Part shown: one piece after another, positions 23,971 to 63,219 of the stretch
How positions within the stretch are numbered: position 1 is the first letter of the stretch
Layout of the letters: every line of letters begins with the position of its first letter
NCBI RefSeq assembly: GCF_016765585.1
Contig: NZ_JAESWC010000001.1
Coordinates: 310,001-374,000, forward strand
DNA: 64,000 nt
DNA from: Clostridium rhizosphaerae
GTDB taxonomy: Bacteria > Bacillota > Clostridia > Clostridiales > Clostridiaceae
Direction: 5' to 3'
Program-made: the position numbers and the translations under genes
The notes under the pieces: model-generated
What the model was told of the DNA's origin: nothing
Database searches by the model: none
Seen by the model: the letters and a program-made list of their open reading frames with translations, nothing else

Positions 23971-25101
23971 TTATAAAACAGATTGATTTACAAGTTCTTT
24001 AATATTCCAGGTTGTATCAACTAGAGGGCTTATTGATTTATCTTTATTAACATAATCTATCACTGTAGAGATAAACTCAGACATATCTACTGCCTTAAAC
24101 CACTCAGCTTCTCTAGCCTCTTTGGGAACATAGGTTAAGTTTGTAGAATAAACTCTGTCTATAAGTCCATTTTCATAAAACTCATTAAATTTATTAACAC
24201 CTTCTGTAAATAATGCAAAGGTAGTTGCAACAAATATTCTTTTGGCTTTTCTACCCTTTAGTTCCTTGACTATATCAAAAACAGACTCACCGGATGCAAT
24301 CATGTCATCAACAATTAAAACATCCATGCCTTCCACATTTCTTCCTATATATTCATGCTGTATTATAGGATTTTTTCCTTTTACAACAGTTGTGTAATCT
24401 CTTCTTTTATAAAATAGTCCAATATCAAGTCCTAAAACACTTGAGTAATAAATTGCTCTGTCCATAGCTCCTGTGTCTGGGCTTATGGTTATCATTTTAG
24501 ACTTATCAATTTCGATATCCTCATTATTTATAAAGGACTTAACAATGTCATAAGTAGGATATAAGTTTTCAAAGGTTAATAAAGGAATCGCATTTTGAAC
24601 ATTTGGATCATGAACGTCAAAGGTATATATATCCTTTACTCCTAATCTTTCAAGCTCTTGAAGGGCCAAAGCACAGTCAAGAGACTCCCTGCTCTTTCTC
24701 TTATGCTGCCTTCCTTCGTATATTATAGGCATTATAACAGTTACTCTTCTTGCCTTACCGCCTATAGCAGATACAACTCTTTTAATATCCTGAAAATGCT
24801 CATCCGGTCCCATATGATGAGTAAAGCCATACATATCATAAGTGCAACTGTAATTTCCTACATCGCACAATATGTATATATCCTTGCCTCTTACTGTCTC
24901 TCCAAGCTTAACCTTACCCTCACCATTTGAAAATCTTACAGCATCTGTGCAAATAAGATAGCTGTCAGGACCTTCTTCATTGCTCTCTTTTCTTTTTTCT
25001 ACAAGGTATTTATCTATTTTAGCTCCTATTTCTTTACAGCTCTCTAAGGCTATAATACCAAGCTGACCATAGGGCATCTTATTAATTAAATCATAAGTCA
25101 T
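23971..25101 (-). CDS. prs: Ribose-phosphate pyrophosphokinase, long form
   Basis: 376 residues from the ATG at 25101 (GGAG 9 bases upstream). The PRPP-binding loop VLIVDDMIASGESVFDIVKE and the conserved FDVHDPNVQNAI segment (flexible-loop/ATP region) identify a PRPP synthetase, which makes PRPP from ribose-5-phosphate and ATP for nucleotide, histidine and tryptophan synthesis. It is about 60 residues longer than the usual 315-residue enzyme, with an extended N-terminus (TYDLINKMPYGQLGIIALES) and an insert DMYGFTHHMGPDEHFQDIK, so it belongs to a divergent subgroup, possibly a paralogue. An in-frame ATG upstream at 25191 would place the start inside a structured repeat and is rejected. Confidence 0.85.
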   Translation of the reverse strand: MTYDLINKMPYGQLGIIALESCKEIGAKIDKYLVEKRKESNEEGPDSYLICTDAVRFSNGEGKVKLGETVRGKDIYILCDVGNYSCTYDMYGFTHHMGPDEHFQDIKRVVSAIGGKARRVTVIMPIIYEGRQHKRKSRESLDCALALQELERLGVKDIYTFDVHDPNVQNAIPLLTFENLYPTYDIVKSFINNEDIEIDKSKMITISPDTGAMDRAIYYSSVLGLDIGLFYKRRDYTTVVKGKNPIIQHEYIGRNVEGMDVLIVDDMIASGESVFDIVKELKGRKAKRIFVATTFALFTEGVNKFNEFYENGLIDRVYSTNLTYVPKEAREAEWFKAVDMSEFISTVIDYVNKDKSISPLVDTTWNIKELVNQSVL

Positions 25102-25111
25102 AATTTTTCTC

Positions 25112-25267
25112 CTTTCAGTCGAAACACTGGGTAATCTGGAGCACTCGCTCCCTTTGGGCACTGGGTAACTTAAGATATTCGCTTCGCTCATAAGTTACCC
25201 GCTAAAGTCCATTTAGGACCTTAGCCTCGAAGATTACCCGTTGAAGTCCATTTAGGACTTCAACCTC
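25112..25267 (-). repeat. Shine-Dalgarno-associated hairpin element, nested double copy
   Basis: On the minus strand: GGAGG, hairpin TTGAAGTCC-TAAAT-GGACTTCAA, then GGGTAATCT ... AGATTACCC, CAGTG TTTCGAC and the SD AAAGGAG of prs. A second complete copy is inserted in the apical loop: CTAAGGTCC-TAAAT-GGACTTTAG, GGGTAACTTA ... TAAGTTACCC, CAGTG. See the copies at 39475, 51176 and 63131. Confidence 0.85.
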
Positions 25268-25384
25268 CTTTTTCAAAACCTTTTCATCAATTATTATTGT
25301 AATGAATTATGACGAATAATACAACCCAAAATACGACACTTTTCTGCTTTTATTTAAATAAAAAGTATTTTTGTAGAATATCAC

Positions 25385-37946: not shown

Positions 37947-39476
37947 ATGAAATACATTATTGGGGTTGATATTGGTACAACCAGCACAAAGTCAATTGCT
38001 TTCGATTTAGATGGAAACGTTATTTCTAAGCAAAATATTTTATATCCTATTTACAATCCTGAACCTTCGTGGAGCGAACAAAGTCCTGTTGAAATGCTTA
38101 ATGCTGTTGTTGAGTCTATTAAAGGTGTAGTTTCCGATAATAACACAAAAGGCAACGAGCTTTTAGGAATTTCCTTCAGCAGTGCAATGCATAGTGTTAT
38201 AGCTATGGATAAAGACGGAAAGCCTTTAACAGATTGCATTATATGGGCTGATACCAGAAGCAAAGACTATGCTGATAAGATTAAAACCAGCATTGAAGGT
38301 CATGAAATCTATATGAGGACAGGTACACCTATTCATCCTATGTCCCCTCTTTGCAAGCTTTGCTGGCTTAGAGACAATATGCCTGATATATTTAACAAAA
38401 CCTATAAATTTATATCTATAAAAGAATATGTATTCTTCAAGTTCTTTGGTGAATACATAGTAGACCATTCTATAGCTTCTGCAACAGGTCTATTTGATAT
38501 ATACGATTTAAAATGGAATAAAACCGCTTTAGACTTGGTTGGTATTACTGAAGACAAATTGTCTATTCCTGTTTCAACAACCTACAGCATTAAAGGTTTA
38601 AACAAGGAATATGCAACCTACATGAATATATCTATAGATACACCTTTTGTTGTCGGTGCAAGCGATGGCTGTCTTGCAAACCTTGGTGCAAATGCAATTA
38701 AAAAGGGTGACGCTGCAGTTACCATAGGAACAAGCGGAGCTATAAGGATTATTTCTGATAAGGCCAAAAATGATGAGTCTGAAAGAATCTTCAGCTACAT
38801 TCTAAGCGAAGAGCATTATGTTCTTGGCGGACCTGTAAATAACGGCGGAATAGTTTTCAGATGGTTCAGAGACAACTTCTCTCCATTGGAATTAGAAGCA
38901 GCTAAAAAGCTTAATATCGATACTTATGAAATTATGACTGATGAAGCAGCAAAGGTAGCTCCAGGGTCAGACGGACTTATATTCCTGCCTTATCTTTTGG
39001 GTGAAAGAGCTCCTCATTGGGATGCTTATTCCAAAGGTGTATACTTTGGAATTAATATAAAGCATAAAAGAGAACATTTCTTAAGAGCATTATTAGAAGG
39101 GGTGATATATGGGGTATATAGCGTTGGAAAAGCTCTTCAAGAAACAACTGGGGAAATAGACACAATCTACGCAACAGGCGGTTTTGTACGCTCTGAGCTT
39201 TGGGTACAAATGCTTGCCGATGTATTTAATAAAAAAGTAGTAATTGCTGAAAGCTATGAAAGCTCATGTCTTGGTGCAGCTGTACTAGGAATGAAATCAC
39301 TAGGAATTATAAATAAAGTAGAAGAAGTAGAAAAACTAGTACCTATATCAAAGACTTTTGAGCCTGATGCAAAGAATCATAAGGCTTACATGAAAAACTT
39401 TGCAGTATACGAAAGACTTTACGGAAAGCTCAAGGATGAATTTTATAATATCAGTTTAATTCAAGAAGAAAATTAA
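37947..39476 (+). CDS. gntK: Gluconokinase (FGGY family)
   Basis: 509 residues, GGGAGGG before the ATG. The FGGY fold is complete: IIGVDIGTTSTKSIAFDLDG (phosphate 1), ADTRSKDYADKI, VVGASDGCLANLGANAIKKG and ATGGFVRSELWVQMLADVF. The GASDGCLANLG segment is characteristic of gluconate kinases of the Bacillus GntK type. It phosphorylates gluconate to 6-phosphogluconate. Followed by the gluconate permease with one structured repeat between; the stop overlaps the repeat boundary. Confidence 0.93.
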   Translation: MKYIIGVDIGTTSTKSIAFDLDGNVISKQNILYPIYNPEPSWSEQSPVEMLNAVVESIKGVVSDNNTKGNELLGISFSSAMHSVIAMDKDGKPLTDCIIWADTRSKDYADKIKTSIEGHEIYMRTGTPIHPMSPLCKLCWLRDNMPDIFNKTYKFISIKEYVFFKFFGEYIVDHSIASATGLFDIYDLKWNKTALDLVGITEDKLSIPVSTTYSIKGLNKEYATYMNISIDTPFVVGASDGCLANLGANAIKKGDAAVTIGTSGAIRIISDKAKNDESERIFSYILSEEHYVLGGPVNNGGIVFRWFRDNFSPLELEAAKKLNIDTYEIMTDEAAKVAPGSDGLIFLPYLLGERAPHWDAYSKGVYFGINIKHKREHFLRALLEGVIYGVYSVGKALQETTGEIDTIYATGGFVRSELWVQMLADVFNKKVVIAESYESSCLGAAVLGMKSLGIINKVEEVEKLVPISKTFEPDAKNHKAYMKNFAVYERLYGKLKDEFYNISLIQEEN

Positions 39477-39566
39477 GGAGGTTAAAGCTCTAAATGGGCT
39501 TTAATGACTAGTTTATGAGCGGGAGCGAGTGGTCTAAACTACTCAGTGCTTCTGACTAAAAGGAGG
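39475..39566 (+). repeat. Shine-Dalgarno-associated hairpin element between gntK and gntP
   Basis: Bounded by AAGGAGG at 39475-39481 and again at 39560-39566. Inside: TTAAAGCTC-TAAAT-GGGCTTTAA, then GACTAGTTTA, GAGCGGGAGCGAG, TAAACTACTC, CAGTGCTTCTGAC. The right-hand AAGGAGG is the ribosome binding site of gntP. See the copies at 25112, 51176 and 63131. Confidence 0.85.
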
Positions 39567-39575
39567 AATTTACTT

Positions 39576-40889
39576 ATGCCATTAGTAGTTGTCGGTATTG
39601 GTGTTATTTTATTATTAATATTAATGATTGGCTTTAAACTTAACGGTTTTGTTTCTTTAATTCTTGTTGCTCTTGCGGTTGGTATTTTAGAGGGAATGCC
39701 TCTTCCTAAGGTTGTAAGCTCTATAACCGGCGGAGTTGGCGGTACTCTAGGAAGCTTGGCACTTATTCTTGGTTTTGGAGCTATGCTCGGAAAGATGATG
39801 GCTGACAGCGGAGCAGCTTCAAGAATAGCTACAACACTTATCAAGAAATTTGGTAAAAAGAGAATTCAATGGGCAGTTGTTATTACTGGATTTGTAGTTG
39901 GTATAGCATTATTTTATGAAATAGGTTTCGTACTTCTTATACCTCTAGTATTTTCTATAGCTGCTGAAGCTGAATTGCCATTACTTTATATAGGAGTACC
40001 TATGGCTGCTGCTTTATCAGTTACTCATGGATTTTTACCTCCACATCCAGGACCAACAGCAATAGCCGGAGTTTACAAAGCTGATATAGCTAAGACTTTA
40101 CTTTACGGTATAATTATCGCTATTCCTACTGTTATTGTAGCAGGACCTGTATTTACATTATTCTTAAAGAAAATGGAGCATCCTATTCCAACAAACCTTT
40201 ATAATCCAAAGACTTTTACAGAAGAAGAAATGCCTGGGTTCGGCGTAAGCATATTTACTGCTTTAGTACCTGTTATATTAATGGCTCTAAGAGCGATTAT
40301 AACAATTTCAGCTCCAAAATCAGCACTTATTCCTTTTGTAACTTTCCTTGGCGATCCAACAATCGCATTATTGATTGCAGTAATTATTGCTTTATTTACT
40401 TTTGGACTTAACAAAGGAAAGAAGATGCCTGAAATCAACAAGACCTTAACTGAAGCCATAGCCTCAATAGCGATGATAATGTTAATAATCGGCGGCGGCG
40501 GAGCATTCAAACAAGTACTTGTAGACAGCGGAGTTGACAAGTATATTAAAGTATTAATGACAGGTTCACACCTTTCACCGCTTATTTTAGCTTGGCTTAT
40601 AGCAGCAGTACTAAGAATAGCTCTTGGATCAGCTACAGTGGCTGGTATGACAGCAGCTGGAATTGCAGCACCGCTGATAGGCATGGGCCACGTAAGCCCT
40701 GAGCTTATGGTTTTGGCAACCGGTGCAGGAAGCTTAATATTCTCACATGTTAATGACCCTGGATTCTGGATATTTAAAGAATACTTTAATCTTTCAATAC
40801 CTGAAACCTTAAAATCCTGGTCAGTACTTGAAACCTTAATATCCGTAATGGGATTGGTACTTGTTTTAATAGCAAGTGTTATAATTTAG
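39576..40889 (+). CDS. gntP: Gluconate permease (GntP family)
   Basis: 437 residues from the ATG 9 bases after AAGGAGG (a longer frame starts inside the repeat). Twelve to fourteen spans with the GntP family hallmarks GALAxGLGxMLG-like LALILGFGAMLGKMMADSG, VTHGFLPPHPGPTAIAG (PPHPGP motif) and GAGSLIFSHVNDPGFWIFKE. It takes up gluconate with protons. Middle gene of gntK-gntP-gnd. Confidence 0.95.
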   Translation: MPLVVVGIGVILLLILMIGFKLNGFVSLILVALAVGILEGMPLPKVVSSITGGVGGTLGSLALILGFGAMLGKMMADSGAASRIATTLIKKFGKKRIQWAVVITGFVVGIALFYEIGFVLLIPLVFSIAAEAELPLLYIGVPMAAALSVTHGFLPPHPGPTAIAGVYKADIAKTLLYGIIIAIPTVIVAGPVFTLFLKKMEHPIPTNLYNPKTFTEEEMPGFGVSIFTALVPVILMALRAIITISAPKSALIPFVTFLGDPTIALLIAVIIALFTFGLNKGKKMPEINKTLTEAIASIAMIMLIIGGGGAFKQVLVDSGVDKYIKVLMTGSHLSPLILAWLIAAVLRIALGSATVAGMTAAGIAAPLIGMGHVSPELMVLATGAGSLIFSHVNDPGFWIFKEYFNLSIPETLKSWSVLETLISVMGLVLVLIASVII

Positions 40890-47049: not shown

Positions 47050-47950
47050 ATAACGTCCTCCAAAGATAAAATGTAGCATATGCCTGCCAACCTTCCCAGT
47101 TTGCTGCATATTCCTTTATTTCTTCTATAGTGGGCTTCCCCTTAAGTCCTAGCAAATTCTTTAAGGCATTATGAAGGCCCACATCCGCAATTGGGAATGC
47201 GGATGTTTGGTGTAAACTTTTCATCATAACATAATCCGCTGTCCATGCTCCTATGCCCCTTATGGACATTAATAATTTATGCACCTCATGATAATCATGT
47301 TTCTCACGCAACATTTCCTTAGTTAATTTCCCACTTTTCATATCCTTAGCAATACCAATGATATATTCAGCCTTTCTGGTGGTAAATTGAAGTTTCTTTA
47401 AATCCTCTACCTCTAAGGCTGCAATAATTTCAAAGGAAGGAAATAGCCAAAATCTTTCTCCTTCAAAGGGTATAAACTCGCCAAACTGCTCAACAAATCT
47501 CTTCTTTAAAGTGTAAGCAAAGACTAAGTTAATCTGCTGTCCTATAATTGCCCACACCAAAGCCTCAAATAAATCAGGAATACACATAATCCGTAAGCCA
47601 TAGTATTTGTGGACGAGTAACTTTAATATTTCATCTTCATTGGCTACTTGATAAAATTCATCTAAATTCTGTTTTAAGTCAAACCATTCCCAAATATACT
47701 CCCCTGCTTTTTTACGCTCGTTAGCAGATGGATTATTCATTGGAAATTCAACCTTTATTGAATTAGTGGTGCACCTAATTTTGCATAAAATCAAAGATTC
47801 CTTCACCTTTATTAGTTTATACAAAAAGCCGCCTTTAATCTGGTGAAGCACTTCAATATCAGATCTTCCTAAGAAGATTAAACACTCTTCAAAATTAAAT
47901 TCCTTTGGAGGAAAGAGTTCTATATAGGCTTCATGATCAATCCAATTCAT
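47033..47950 (-). CDS. alkA: DNA-3-methyladenine glycosylase II
   Basis: 305 residues. An N-terminal AlkA domain (about 1-110), then helix-hairpin-helix GPD glycosylase motifs: WAIIGQQINLVFAYTLKKRF, LLMSIRGIGAWTADYVMMKS (HhH) and FPIADVGLHNALKNLL with the catalytic Asp. It removes alkylated purines. The start overlaps ada by 14 bases and the end overlaps ogt by 17, so the operon is tightly coupled. Confidence 0.93.
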   Translation of the reverse strand: MNWIDHEAYIELFPPKEFNFEECLIFLGRSDIEVLHQIKGGFLYKLIKVKESLILCKIRCTTNSIKVEFPMNNPSANERKKAGEYIWEWFDLKQNLDEFYQVANEDEILKLLVHKYYGLRIMCIPDLFEALVWAIIGQQINLVFAYTLKKRFVEQFGEFIPFEGERFWLFPSFEIIAALEVEDLKKLQFTTRKAEYIIGIAKDMKSGKLTKEMLREKHDYHEVHKLLMSIRGIGAWTADYVMMKSLHQTSAFPIADVGLHNALKNLLGLKGKPTIEEIKEYAANWEGWQAYATFYLWRTLYDKEI

Positions 47951-49787: not shown

Positions 49788-50000
49788 TTATTCTATTCCA
49801 ATATTTTTAAGGCCATCTTTTTCTTTGCTCTTGTTTACAGGTTCATCTTTGATTTCTTGAGAGCTTTCATTAATACTTTTTAGTACTATCTTGCTTAAGT
49901 TTCTTAAGTTATCTGACATTTCTTGTGGCAGCTGATTCAATATTTTATCAGCTTTAGTTAATTTATATTTAATTATATTTTTAATTAACGCTTCATTCAT
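49788..50000 (-). CDS. Small protein translated with the ArsA-like ATPase
   Basis: 70 residues from the ATG at 50000, which overlaps the ArsA stop by 8 bases (AATGAATGA), so it is translated by coupling. The product begins MNEALIKNIIKYKLTKADKI and continues NQLPQEMSDNLRNLSKIVL with a charged, Ser/Lys-rich tail. No domain is recognised. A role as partner of the ATPase is inferred from the overlap. Confidence 0.7.
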   Translation of the reverse strand: MNEALIKNIIKYKLTKADKILNQLPQEMSDNLRNLSKIVLKSINESSQEIKDEPVNKSKEKDGLKNIGIE

Positions 50001-51168
50001 TTTTGTCACTTCCAAATCTTATCTTTAATACTTCATTTTCAAACTTAGCTGATTTTATTGATAGATTTAAAAGTGTTCTTGGAAGAGTGATATTTCTTTT
50101 TATGCTTCCAGCCTTAATAATAAGTTCATCGCCCTTTTGGTTTAGTGAGAGCTCCTCTTTATTTAGAAAAGGCATATTTATGGCTAAAATATAATCCTCT
50201 CCTTCTTTAGAAACTGCTTGCGACCTTCCATTAAATTTTATTTCAACTGGATTTTCATTTTTAAAAACTGCCTCTGCCATTCTATTAAGCATCTGCATTC
50301 CTACAACCTCATTTTCAAATAATGGAGCATAATATATTGGTAATGGCGAAAAACTTTCAATTATACTTTCTCTATACTTTTTCTGAATATCCTTCCAGAC
50401 CTTAAAATAGCTGTCTGTTACATTGTCCGGAATAACTCTATTAACTACAATTGCATCCACATTAAAATCATAAATATTGAGATAGGTAAAACTTCTTTGT
50501 GCTTCCTTAATAACCATCTTTTCAGGATTAACAACAATTCTTATGCTGGTTATATCTCTATCAGAAAATATTTTTTTCATTTCATCAAGCTGATAATACA
50601 TATTGTCAATTTCATCAAGAACTTGTGAAGAAGGCATTGGTATCTTTAACATAGTCTCAGCAATTGGACCGGCAACCTTTATAGCCTTTTTCTTTATAGG
50701 AAATAACTTTTCCATCCACCATCTCAGCATTTCAGGGAAACTTAATAATGCAAGTGTCTCTCCTGTTGGTGCGCAATCTATAATTATAGTGTCAAATCTG
50801 CCTTCCTTATAATACTTTAGTATTCTTAGAAGACTTAGCAGATCCTCCATACCAGGAAAAACAGTGAGCTCTTGTGTTGTAATATCTTTTACAGTTTTTG
50901 ATGTGAAAAGTTCAGTTAAATATTTTTGAACCTTCCCCCAACCTTCTTCCACCTCATGTATTGCATCTATTTCTTGTGCCCAAAGATTTTGACTTATTTC
51001 TTGAGGTTCATTAGATAATTTTATATCCAAAGAGTCTCCAAGACTGTGAGCAGGATCAGTGCTTACAACAAGAGTTTTCATCCCTTGTTTGGCACTTTCC
51101 AAAGCTGTGGCTGCAGCAATGCTTGTTTTTCCAACTCCACCTTTTCCTGTATATAGTATTATTCTCAT
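49993..51168 (-). CDS. ArsA/GET3-family ATPase with C-terminal HSP20-like domain
   Basis: 391 residues, AAGGAGG before the ATG. P-loop GKGGVGKTSIAAA (8-20), switch STDPAHSLGD (about 40-49) and the DTIIIDCAPTGETLALL segment (about 127-143) are those of ArsA ATPases. The metal-binding cysteines of arsenite pumps are not apparent. The last 75 residues (EDYILAINMPFLNKEEL to NLSIKSAKFENEVLKIRF) are an alpha-crystallin/HSP20-like beta domain, as in the bacterial 'ArsA_HSP20' group. A MarR regulator lies upstream and a 70-residue protein downstream. Not an arsenic pump on present evidence; possibly involved in protein handling. Confidence 0.88.
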   Translation of the reverse strand: MRIILYTGKGGVGKTSIAAATALESAKQGMKTLVVSTDPAHSLGDSLDIKLSNEPQEISQNLWAQEIDAIHEVEEGWGKVQKYLTELFTSKTVKDITTQELTVFPGMEDLLSLLRILKYYKEGRFDTIIIDCAPTGETLALLSFPEMLRWWMEKLFPIKKKAIKVAGPIAETMLKIPMPSSQVLDEIDNMYYQLDEMKKIFSDRDITSIRIVVNPEKMVIKEAQRSFTYLNIYDFNVDAIVVNRVIPDNVTDSYFKVWKDIQKKYRESIIESFSPLPIYYAPLFENEVVGMQMLNRMAEAVFKNENPVEIKFNGRSQAVSKEGEDYILAINMPFLNKEELSLNQKGDELIIKAGSIKRNITLPRTLLNLSIKSAKFENEVLKIRFGSDKNE

Positions 51169-51175
51169 GATAATT

Positions 51176-51265
51176 CCTCCTTATTGTCGGAAGCACTGAA
51201 CAATTAAAAACTCTCGCTTCCGCTCGAAAATTGCTCGTTGAAGTCCATTTAGGACTTCAACCTCC
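51176..51265 (-). repeat. Shine-Dalgarno-associated hairpin element before the ArsA-like gene
   Basis: On the minus strand: GGAGG, TTGAAGTCC-TAAAT-GGACTTCAA, GAGCAATTTT, GAGCGGAAGCGAG, AATTGTTCAGTG, CTTCCGAC, then AAGGAGG as the SD of the ATPase gene. GGAAGC in the loop can pair with GCTTCC after CAGTG (pseudoknot). Confidence 0.85.
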
Positions 51266-61362: not shown

Positions 61363-63126
61363 TTAATACACTCTAATCTCATAAATGCTAATCTGCTCAG
61401 CTCCCCATGTACTCAACGGCTTAACCCTAATCTTGTCACAGCTGATGTTATCCACCATAGTACAGCTGAGTCTTCTATGATTATCTCTAATCTCTCTCTT
61501 ACCTACCAGTATTTCCTTATCATAAAATTCTATATCATAATCTTTTACAATTTCTTTAGGAGTACCTTCCTGCTGGCGCTCTCTTACGCTGTGAGTCATG
61601 GAAACCATTATCTCTTTTGAAAGATTAGAATCAAATTTTATTCGTATTTCCTTAGGTGAAACCCTATTTTGAAAAGCTAGTTCAATCCATGGAGCCTTGT
61701 CACTGCTTTTAGCTATCCAAGCATTGATTTGATCTTTAACCGTTCTTGGGCATCCATTTATTATATTTTCTGGTTCACAGTTTTCCAGGAAACTTGAAGC
61801 GCTTACCTTTGCAGATAACGCTTGGTCATCTTTATCTTCATTTTTAAAGCCTGGTATAAAGCAATCGTCCTTCATAAGTTTCTGCTGAAGCTCACTGATA
61901 TGCTCATTAAGCCCTCTTGGTAAAATCTTTTTCTCAGTGCACATAGCAGCTGCAGTTCCGGCGGCCTGACCGATAACAGCACAGGTTGCCATAACCCTTG
62001 TAGAGCCAAATGCCATGTGAGAAGCGCTTATATCTCTTCCTGCCAGCATTAGATTGCCAATATTCTTTGAGTATATTGATCTGTAGGGTATTGTATATAA
62101 ATCTTCCATCATAATAAAATCATTTGGTTCTCTTCTTGTTCTTATTCCTCCTACAGTATGCATATCCATAGGCCACCCGCCATAAGCAATGGCATCTTCA
62201 AATATTCTTCCTGCAAACAGATCCTGTTCCCTAAGAATATAATCTCCAACTATTCTTCTGCTTTCTCTTTTTCCTGGCAAAAAGCCTACCCAGTCAAGAG
62301 CAAAATTATCTGCGTTGTGATGTCCTGAGTTTTTGATATGATCCCATACACCATATACAGCCTTTAAGAGTTCATCTCTTATTTGCTCTCCATCCTGTAT
62401 AACCTCCAGATTATCTCCACCAATTTCAATCCACCAATATCCGCTGTTTATTTCATGATGTTCTCTGTAGGCCAAATCTTCCTCTTTATAAGTATTAGCC
62501 CACTCTGGTTTTACAAAGTCTACTTTTTTACCCATATCTATAGCTGTAAACAGCAAAGTGTTCCCCATAGTATGATTATCCGGCTCATCTGGAGCATATT
62601 TTTCTCCAAATACTTTTTTACCTTCCCTTCCAGACATGTATTCAGCTCCAGATAAATAGGCAATAGTACCATCACCTGTAGCATCTATAAACACTTGTCC
62701 ATTAAGCTGAAACACTTTTTCTGTAGTTAATTGTTCTCCGATAACACTTACAATTTTATCTTCCTCTTTAATTAAGCTTGTAATATGAGTATTTAAATAT
62801 AAATCAAGGTTTTCTTGAAATCTTGTTTTTTCCCATAGTATTGTATCTAATATTGAAAAAGAGTTGCTTCTATTGACTCTTTTGTTGTCTAATAAAATTT
62901 CTTCTATTATTCCGGTCTCTCTGGCATTTTGCCTAAAACCATGATAATCTGCCCCGCATATATGCATTCTTATTTCAGAGCTTGCATTGCCTCCTAGTAC
63001 AGGCCTATTGTTTACAAGAGCAGTTTTTGCTCCTTCTCTGGCACTGGCTATGGCTGCACATACACCAGCCATACCTCCTCCAATGACTATTACTTCATAA
63101 TCCTTAATTTTATTTTTCTTATCCAT
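61363..63126 (-). CDS. FAD-dependent oxidoreductase (FAD_oxidored family) with C-terminal beta domain
   Basis: 587 residues. Dinucleotide fold YEVIVIGGGMAGVCAAIASA (residues 8-27), a second FAD contact VFIDATGDGTIAYLSGAEYM and AGRDISASHMAFGSTRVMAT near 350 identify a PF12831-type flavoprotein, common in polysaccharide loci of anaerobes. The last ~140 residues (AWIAKSSDKAPWIELAFQNR; NHRRLSCTMVDNISCDKIRV) look like a discoidin/NPCBM-like sugar-binding beta domain. No signal peptide. It is encoded between the ABC permease and YesNM. Substrate unknown, probably a sugar or sugar acid. Confidence 0.87.
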   Translation of the reverse strand: MDKKNKIKDYEVIVIGGGMAGVCAAIASAREGAKTALVNNRPVLGGNASSEIRMHICGADYHGFRQNARETGIIEEILLDNKRVNRSNSFSILDTILWEKTRFQENLDLYLNTHITSLIKEEDKIVSVIGEQLTTEKVFQLNGQVFIDATGDGTIAYLSGAEYMSGREGKKVFGEKYAPDEPDNHTMGNTLLFTAIDMGKKVDFVKPEWANTYKEEDLAYREHHEINSGYWWIEIGGDNLEVIQDGEQIRDELLKAVYGVWDHIKNSGHHNADNFALDWVGFLPGKRESRRIVGDYILREQDLFAGRIFEDAIAYGGWPMDMHTVGGIRTRREPNDFIMMEDLYTIPYRSIYSKNIGNLMLAGRDISASHMAFGSTRVMATCAVIGQAAGTAAAMCTEKKILPRGLNEHISELQQKLMKDDCFIPGFKNEDKDDQALSAKVSASSFLENCEPENIINGCPRTVKDQINAWIAKSSDKAPWIELAFQNRVSPKEIRIKFDSNLSKEIMVSMTHSVRERQQEGTPKEIVKDYDIEFYDKEILVGKREIRDNHRRLSCTMVDNISCDKIRVKPLSTWGAEQISIYEIRVY

Positions 63127-63130
63127 TTTT

Positions 63131-63219
63131 TCTCCTTTCAGTCAAAACACTGGTTAGTTTATAACGCTCGTTCACACTCGCAAACTACCCGTACAAGATC
63201 ATTTAGATCTTGTACCTCG
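63131..63219 (-). repeat. Shine-Dalgarno-associated hairpin element before the FAD gene
   Basis: On the minus strand: GCGAGG, TACAAGATC-TAAAT-GATCTTGTA, GGGTAGTTT, GAGTGTGAACGAG, AAACTAACC, CAGTGTTTTGAC, AAAGGAG. The stem sequence differs from every other copy, yet pairs perfectly. Confidence 0.85.

Follow-up and report, generated by a model that had tools for sequence, protein, structure and literature searches.

A family of small, apparently mobile double-hairpin elements in Clostridium rhizosphaerae, with one subfamily that ends in a Shine-Dalgarno sequence

The most probable reading (roughly 85%) is that the genome of Clostridium rhizosphaerae harbors a family of small mobile elements, apparently non-autonomous and presumably inserted in trans, and that in one of its subfamilies, a very successful one, the 3' tail ends in a strong Shine-Dalgarno (SD) sequence. 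Such an element appears to solve the problem of damage to its host by carrying with it the signal that it interrupts. The analysis was started from a window, that is, a whole stretch of 64,000 nucleotides (contig NZ_JAESWC010000001.1, positions 310,001 to 374,000), in which a first-pass annotation had described five copies of a structured element at four loci.

Structure of the element and its copies in the window

An alignment of 46 rows (A1), with the 63 kb copy of the window added, was used to describe the element. One overlapping duplicate, two of the three near-identical units of locus L040 and the copy of locus L010 were excluded from it, and two matches of the regular expression were judged to be non-elements and dropped. 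In the 46 aligned copies, a GGAGG-like left edge is followed by hairpin 1, hairpin 2 and an SD-bearing tail, over a total length of roughly 90 nt. Hairpin 1 has a stem of 9 bp plus one further closing pair and the loop TAAAT; hairpin 2 abuts it and, above its foot G(A/G)G...C(T/C)C, varies at the top. The sequence AGTG(C)TTCCGACTAAAAGGAGG lies 3' of hairpin 2, and the tail of the SD type ends in AAAGGAGG/A. The double-hairpin core comprises about 66-75 nt, with about 10 pairs in hairpin 1 and a hairpin 2 that varies in length as well as in its top.

Both stems covary. When the two stems were scored together with a tentative third helix in the 46 copies, 97.1% of the cells were paired, versus 88.0% in shuffles and at most 51.3% in slid versions, and 107 cells were changed on both sides against a shuffle mean of 31.8, figures that are not to be read as probabilities because the copies are related. 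The covarying stem with a fixed loop, as proposed in the first-pass annotation, was thus borne out by the two-sided changes. Its 9-bp stem is present, but the preceding G pairs with the base that follows, which gives 10 pairs in total, and the stem is not perfectly paired in each copy as had been stated, since a G.T pair lies inside it in the 39 kb copy and in the inner 25 kb copy. A pseudoknot between the loop of hairpin 2 (GGAAGC) and the tail (GCTTCC) was also considered and is not claimed: 95.9% of its cells are paired, the changes are mostly one-sided, the tail is kept in copies that have other loops, and the permutation of loops and tails, in which 35 of 2000 were as good, supports the pairing weakly.

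A covariance model (R1) was built from the 46 copies, with three of the four window loci included and the 25 kb locus excluded. The element was confirmed by this model at all four loci (E 4e-18 to 1e-26), and the only other match in the window was at chance level (47331-47414, E 0.22). No Rfam family reached its gathering score anywhere in the window, and in a permissive scan of four loci all Rfam matches overlapping the element were below threshold, with E 1.8 or worse; Rfam was also run on the context genes.

Three of the loci carry a simple element of the SD type. The copy at 39477-39566, on the plus strand, lies between the genes for an FGGY kinase (37947-39476) and a GntP permease (39576-40889), as identified by Pfam. 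Its left SD (39477-39481) is followed by hairpin 1 (39481-39505, loop TAAAT), hairpin 2 (39506-39544) and a tail (39545-39566) that contains CTTCT and the new SD (39562-39566). The other two are on the minus strand: the SD of the copy at 51176-51265 stops 7 nt ahead of the ATG of an ArsA-type ATPase gene (49993-51168), and the copy at 63131-63219 precedes a gene for an FAD-dependent oxidoreductase (61363-63126). A composite element (25108-25268, minus strand) precedes the gene for a PRPP-synthetase-like protein (23971-25101). It had been described as a double copy at 25112-25267, and two copies are indeed present, but one is nested in hairpin 2 of the other and they are not side by side. The outer copy, of the SD type, is in two pieces on the minus strand (25268-25226 and 25151-25108), and the inner copy (25152-25225, minus strand) has the tail AGTGCCCAAAG and no SD tail.

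Copy number, gene context and occupancy of sites

The further genomic copies that are expected of a mobile element were found. All of the 150 candidates scored in the C. rhizosphaerae genome matched R1 (E <= 7e-11), so that it holds at least 150 copies, and BLASTN with one copy as the query gave 62 places in the same genome at E <= 10. Among the matches listed there were 112 loci, 81 of them single, 25 double, 5 triple and 1 quadruple, which makes 31 arrays. The copies in these arrays stack head to tail. Adjacent pairs were less than 80% alike in 17 of 37 cases and more than 95% alike in 8, with some of these values depressed by composites; neighbors are often unlike each other, as repeated insertion with some duplication would give. 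Composites resembling the one at 25 kb were found at another C. rhizosphaerae locus (L037) and at four loci of Clostridium sp. OS1-26 (L210, L222, L242, and L246), and in the inner, nested copies the tail is another one, AGTGCCCGAAG or a similar sequence. The recurrence of composites within Clostridium sp. OS1-26 suggests that these, too, spread.

The gene context was read, with flanks, for 103 of the 112 loci. The start of an open reading frame (ORF) was located 2-20 nt past the element at 95 of the 103, most often at 7 nt, in a survey that started from a query of the SD type and a model built on that type and thereby favored the SD context. The start codon was ATG in 87 of these 95. Six of the remaining eight loci continue into more element sequence, and two precede an ATG that opens an ORF too short for the criterion used. 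Nearly the same test was passed by 11.4% of random positions of the window, on either strand. An earlier context table, in which an SD-like right end was required, had 55 rows, comprising 37 with a gene, 13 with a tandem copy and 5 with neither.

The two edges of the element differ in constancy. The right edge was GGAGG or GGAGA at 94 of the 103 loci, and the left edge was GGAGG at 63. At the 72 loci without a directly preceding copy, selected by a rough filter, the left motif was GGAGG in 42 and another motif in 30, such as AGAGG, CGAGG, TGAGG, AAAGG or GGATG, a few of them inside another copy. Since the left edge varies and the right edge is nearly fixed, the simplest reading takes the left motif as the site that was interrupted and the right one as the SD of the element itself. 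The view that GGAGG at both edges represents a duplicated target is therefore abandoned, while the insertion into ribosome-binding sites and their regeneration, proposed in the same annotation, agree with the ORF starts and right-hand SDs just described. Copies of the SD subfamily have an SD-like motif on their 5' side and, wherever a gene start was reached, run in the sense of the next gene; their own SD has a normal spacing to the start codon. The genes behind the copies are unrelated, as the first-pass annotation had said, and point to no single pathway: in the window they encode the four proteins named above by Pfam (PRPP-synthetase-like, GntP permease behind an FGGY kinase, ArsA ATPase, and FAD oxidoreductase), and elsewhere they include genes that, from their translations, we take to be recR-, lacZ-, galE-, fabD-, carB-, and glgC-like. 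About a hundred genes thus appear to have had their ribosome-binding site replaced, a natural experiment in how 5' leaders evolve.

Occupancy was then compared in four relatives (G001, G002, G003, and G041), three of them from the same genus and one from elsewhere in the family. These were searched with N-terminal fragments of 23 of the 37 genes behind the element, excluding ABC-type, response-regulator and other promiscuous families, and the best tblastn match was taken as the orthologue. All 37 fragments were subsequently compared with the fetched loci; for 21 of them a match with 55% identity or more was available, with 53 upstream regions, and the PRPP-synthetase-like and ArsA loci, among others, fall outside these 21. 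By the covariance model, the element was present in 5 of the 53 regions and absent from 48. A regular expression additionally flagged the L170 region, which the model did not, and the counts of the model are used.

Seventeen of the 21 sites were unoccupied in every relative compared, which, together with arrays, nesting, erosion, patchiness and the related cores in or beside RNA genes (including a filled and an unfilled tRNA-Asn gene of one C. oryzae locus), upholds the mobility of the element. The same element at the same site, taken in the first-pass annotation as the mark of a conserved leader, was absent at these 17 and present at the other 4, which were common to one or two relatives (such as fabD, occupied in G001 and G003, and the FAD gene, occupied in G001); part of the set is therefore old. 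The gntP gene and the genes presumed from their translations to be vorA-, galE- and udk-like have an ordinary SD in a relative where C. rhizosphaerae bears the element, and the best gntP match in G041 has no element. At the site of the FAD gene (63 kb), a diverged copy is present in G001 and the site is unoccupied in G041. The fabD copy is crisp in C. rhizosphaerae, decayed in G001 and G003, and absent in G002 and G041. Growth is seen at the presumed phnP-like locus (again named from its translation), where G001 has only the 3' part of the outer copy and C. rhizosphaerae has an outer, a nested and a tandem copy.

A separate observation was made in an oxidoreductase operon, in which C. drakei (G007, L109:3683-3773) and G003 (L115:2405-2495) have the element at a matching site with very similar flanks, across genera. 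This resemblance suggests that the operon may have been transferred together with its element.

Distribution of the family and cores in RNA genes

Matches to R1 were detected in 35 of 194 genomes of the family and, in a broader set of 98 relatives, in 20, of which 16 belong to the same family and 4 to another family of the order; the 20 genomes of this set that represent families of the class outside the order gave none. Up to 44 candidates per genome were scored in the 98 relatives and up to 22 in the 194 genomes, and copy counts are lower bounds. The carriers among the matches listed by a pattern scan are Clostridium oryzae, C. drakei, C. carboxidivorans, C. magnum, C. lacusfryxellense, C. 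thailandense, C. intestinale, Clostridium sp. OS1-26, and others. No match was obtained in phages or plasmids with one copy as the query, and three IMG/VR contigs match the core pattern.

The core also occurs without the SD tail. In C. oryzae it lies within a longer repeat, of which up to about 340 nt are shared, that was read at 13 places (L081-L093). At three other places of this genome (L096-L098), the core has a different right flank and represents another amplification. In a tRNA-Asn gene of C. oryzae (L228:1270-1420, NZ_MZGV01000032.1), the core is inserted in the T loop, and the intact tRNA-Asn gene of the same locus (L228:192-266) differs from it by the insert and by two bases lost at the junction. 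Just upstream of the interrupted gene, a 5S-like 3' end with an apparently inverted hairpin pair was seen by eye. The core was also found in a broken gene resembling that of tRNA-Phe, by eye. A further core lies in the variable region of a gene recognized by eye as tRNA-Ala (L201:1-130), inside which the contig starts; its T stem still pairs, and the insert could be tolerated, spliced or dead. ARAGORN made no call on the interrupted tRNA genes, and the tRNA-Ala and tRNA-Phe assignments are those made by eye.

Ribosomal RNA genes were affected in a similar manner. At L063, L064, L067, and L114, from four genera (G024, G029, G037, and G018), the 5S rRNA gene is preceded by a duplicate of its initial 25-40 nt with the core behind that duplicate. 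They look like insertions with repetition of the 5' part of the target. A related double hairpin is located directly behind the 3' end of 16S rRNA, which bears the anti-SD, in another genome (G065, L068).

Possible mechanism, alternative explanations and related systems

According to the mechanism that we favor, an enzyme acting in trans would insert the element at G-rich sites such as GGAGG, between GGAG and G, most likely at the DNA level and on folded single strands. The portable SD would make insertion in a ribosome-binding site nearly harmless and every new copy would be a new target, so that survivors would collect and stack at SDs. A clean single-strand transposition is at odds with the two bases lost in the C. 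oryzae tRNA-Asn gene and with the repeated 25-40 nt of 5S. No copy was found to contain or adjoin a mobilizing gene. RNA folding of one window copy pairs the CUUCC of its tail with the SD that it carries, and the SD was predicted to be paired in 33 of 91 copies, a predicted pairing that may lower or tune translation. It is improbable that the element goes further and is a self-guided mobile RNA or DNA element, whose anti-SD-like tail (CUUCC) would find ribosome-binding sites by pairing and would install a portable, tunable SD before about a hundred genes as a dispersed translational regulon.

The identity of the mover is a matter apart from mobility. That a RAYT-like Y1 (HUH) transposase moves the element in the manner of REP/REPIN sequences is a somewhat unlikely possibility, raised because the hairpins adjoining a G-rich tag recall REPs, and long Y1 proteins are encoded in the copy-rich genomes of C. 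rhizosphaerae, G001 and G041 and in G003, while G002, of the same genus, has neither the element nor Y1. C. rhizosphaerae has one intact Y1 (IS200-like) gene of about 322 aa (G000:C6:81325-82245) and one fragment, and Y1-like genes were detected in 98 of the 194 genomes of the family at E <= 1e-20. A strong Y1 match (E<1e-60, counted by hand) was present in 23 of the 35 genomes with the element versus 38 of the 159 without it (Fisher p 4e-6, a value that is naive on kinship). However, 12 of the 35 have no strong match, and Y1 gave no match at all in G007, where 7 copies are present. The linked Y1/IS200 transposase suggested in the first-pass annotation was sought and none was linked: the loci around the Y1 gene have no element in C. 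rhizosphaerae, G001 and G003, and in G041 one lies about 1.9 kb off. The Y1 gene is instead flanked by inverted GGGACGG...CCGTCCC in five of five genomes examined (C. rhizosphaerae, G001, G041, G019, and G023), including two, G019 and G023, in which no element was found, and these ends of its own weaken Y1 as the mover. Spread by retroposition, with a transcribed, structured RNA being reverse transcribed and inserted, perhaps while its CUUCC tail is paired to GGAGG at the target, is unlikely. It would accommodate the copies found in sense orientation in SDs, in tRNA-Asn and in the tRNA-Ala and broken tRNA-Phe genes named by eye and beside 5S and 16S rRNA, the bases lost and repeated at targets, and a tail complementary to GGAGG, and an RNA route has been suggested for the hairpin elements of Allomyces in the available text of PMC2800124. 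Reverse transcriptases (RVT_1) occur in C. rhizosphaerae, G034 and G041, but none was matched in G001 (at least 43 copies), G003 or G007, and their absence from genomes that bear copies weakens a reverse transcriptase as the mover. A DNA target of the GGAGG type with selection explains the bias to SDs as well, given that 22 of the 31 GGAGG motifs outside the rough ORF set of the window are SDs (some of these motifs belong to elements), and the hairpin pair beside the 5S-like end in L228 looks inverted by eye.

The two other explanations concern the nature of the element. A conserved, immobile cis-regulatory RNA that marks a regulon, be it a riboswitch or a leader bound by a protein, would fit the fixed position at the SD, the pairing of the SD predicted in 33 of 91 copies, the four of 21 sites common to a relative, and the fact that loops pair slightly better with the tail of their own copy than with those of other copies (a result equaled in 35 of 2000 permutations). 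The unrelated genes, the 17 of 21 sites unoccupied in the relatives compared, the stacking, nesting and erosion of copies, a hairpin 2 that differs freely and the absence of an Rfam family at gathering score nevertheless make it quite improbable. An ordinary MITE of a cut-and-paste transposon would likewise be short, dispersed and non-autonomous, but scarcely any weight is given to it: by eye the consensus has no terminal inverted repeats, its 5' GGAGGTTAAAG and 3' TAAAAGGAGG not being inverted, and no consistent target duplication is found, as judged from the 30 of 72 left motifs other than GGAGG and from the tRNA-Asn gene minus two bases.

Among known systems, IS200/IS605-derived elements have subterminal hairpins with guide bases and share the ends of their partner IS. 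Two hairpins and the lack of a regular duplication would fit that model, and the one intact Y1 gene is flanked differently. The nearest analogues in form are mitochondrial double-hairpin elements and REP-type repeats. As in the former, two adjacent hairpins form one mobile unit, here with covarying stems and nested and tandem units. Mitochondrial double-hairpin elements are also short, with two hairpins, tandem or multiple forms, copies in rRNA genes and a frequency that varies among close relatives; those of Allomyces are reported to lack flanking duplications, and their mechanism is described as unsettled, in the text available (PMC2800124). The present family differs from them in its bacterial chromosome, the loop TAAAT, the SD tail and the insertion in SDs, and it may be their bacterial counterpart. 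REP/REPIN sequences with their RAYT or TIRYT genes are similarly short hairpins of high copy number with a short G-containing tag (PMC3733652, in the part available). Unlike them, the element has no GTAG or CGTC tag, has two unlike hairpins in the sense of the gene, and does not flank the Y1 gene, whose GGGACGG inverted repeats are TIRYT-like.

Yeast mitochondrial GC clusters are small mobile palindromes that merge and shuffle, with a putative two-base target duplication (AG), according to the accessible text of PMC4478555; the element is small, mobile and palindromic as well, but has no regular duplication and another genome and target. Rickettsia palindromic elements are likewise small palindromic insertions tolerated in genes. 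Nearly half of them are said in the accessible text of PMC10969869 to be in open reading frames, whereas the present elements occupy SDs and RNA genes. No element that is inserted into an SD and restores it is described in the open-access literature searched, including the available parts of PMC4478555, PMC2800124, PMC3733652, PMC10969869, and PMC2229807. Surveys of clostridial leaders and riboswitches could mistake the element for a regulatory RNA. Additionally, RAYT-like Y1 genes with inverted GGGACGG(TTAACA) ends, which form a TIRYT-like unit, were observed in several Clostridiaceae (L104:5055-6332, L101, L102, L181, and L182).
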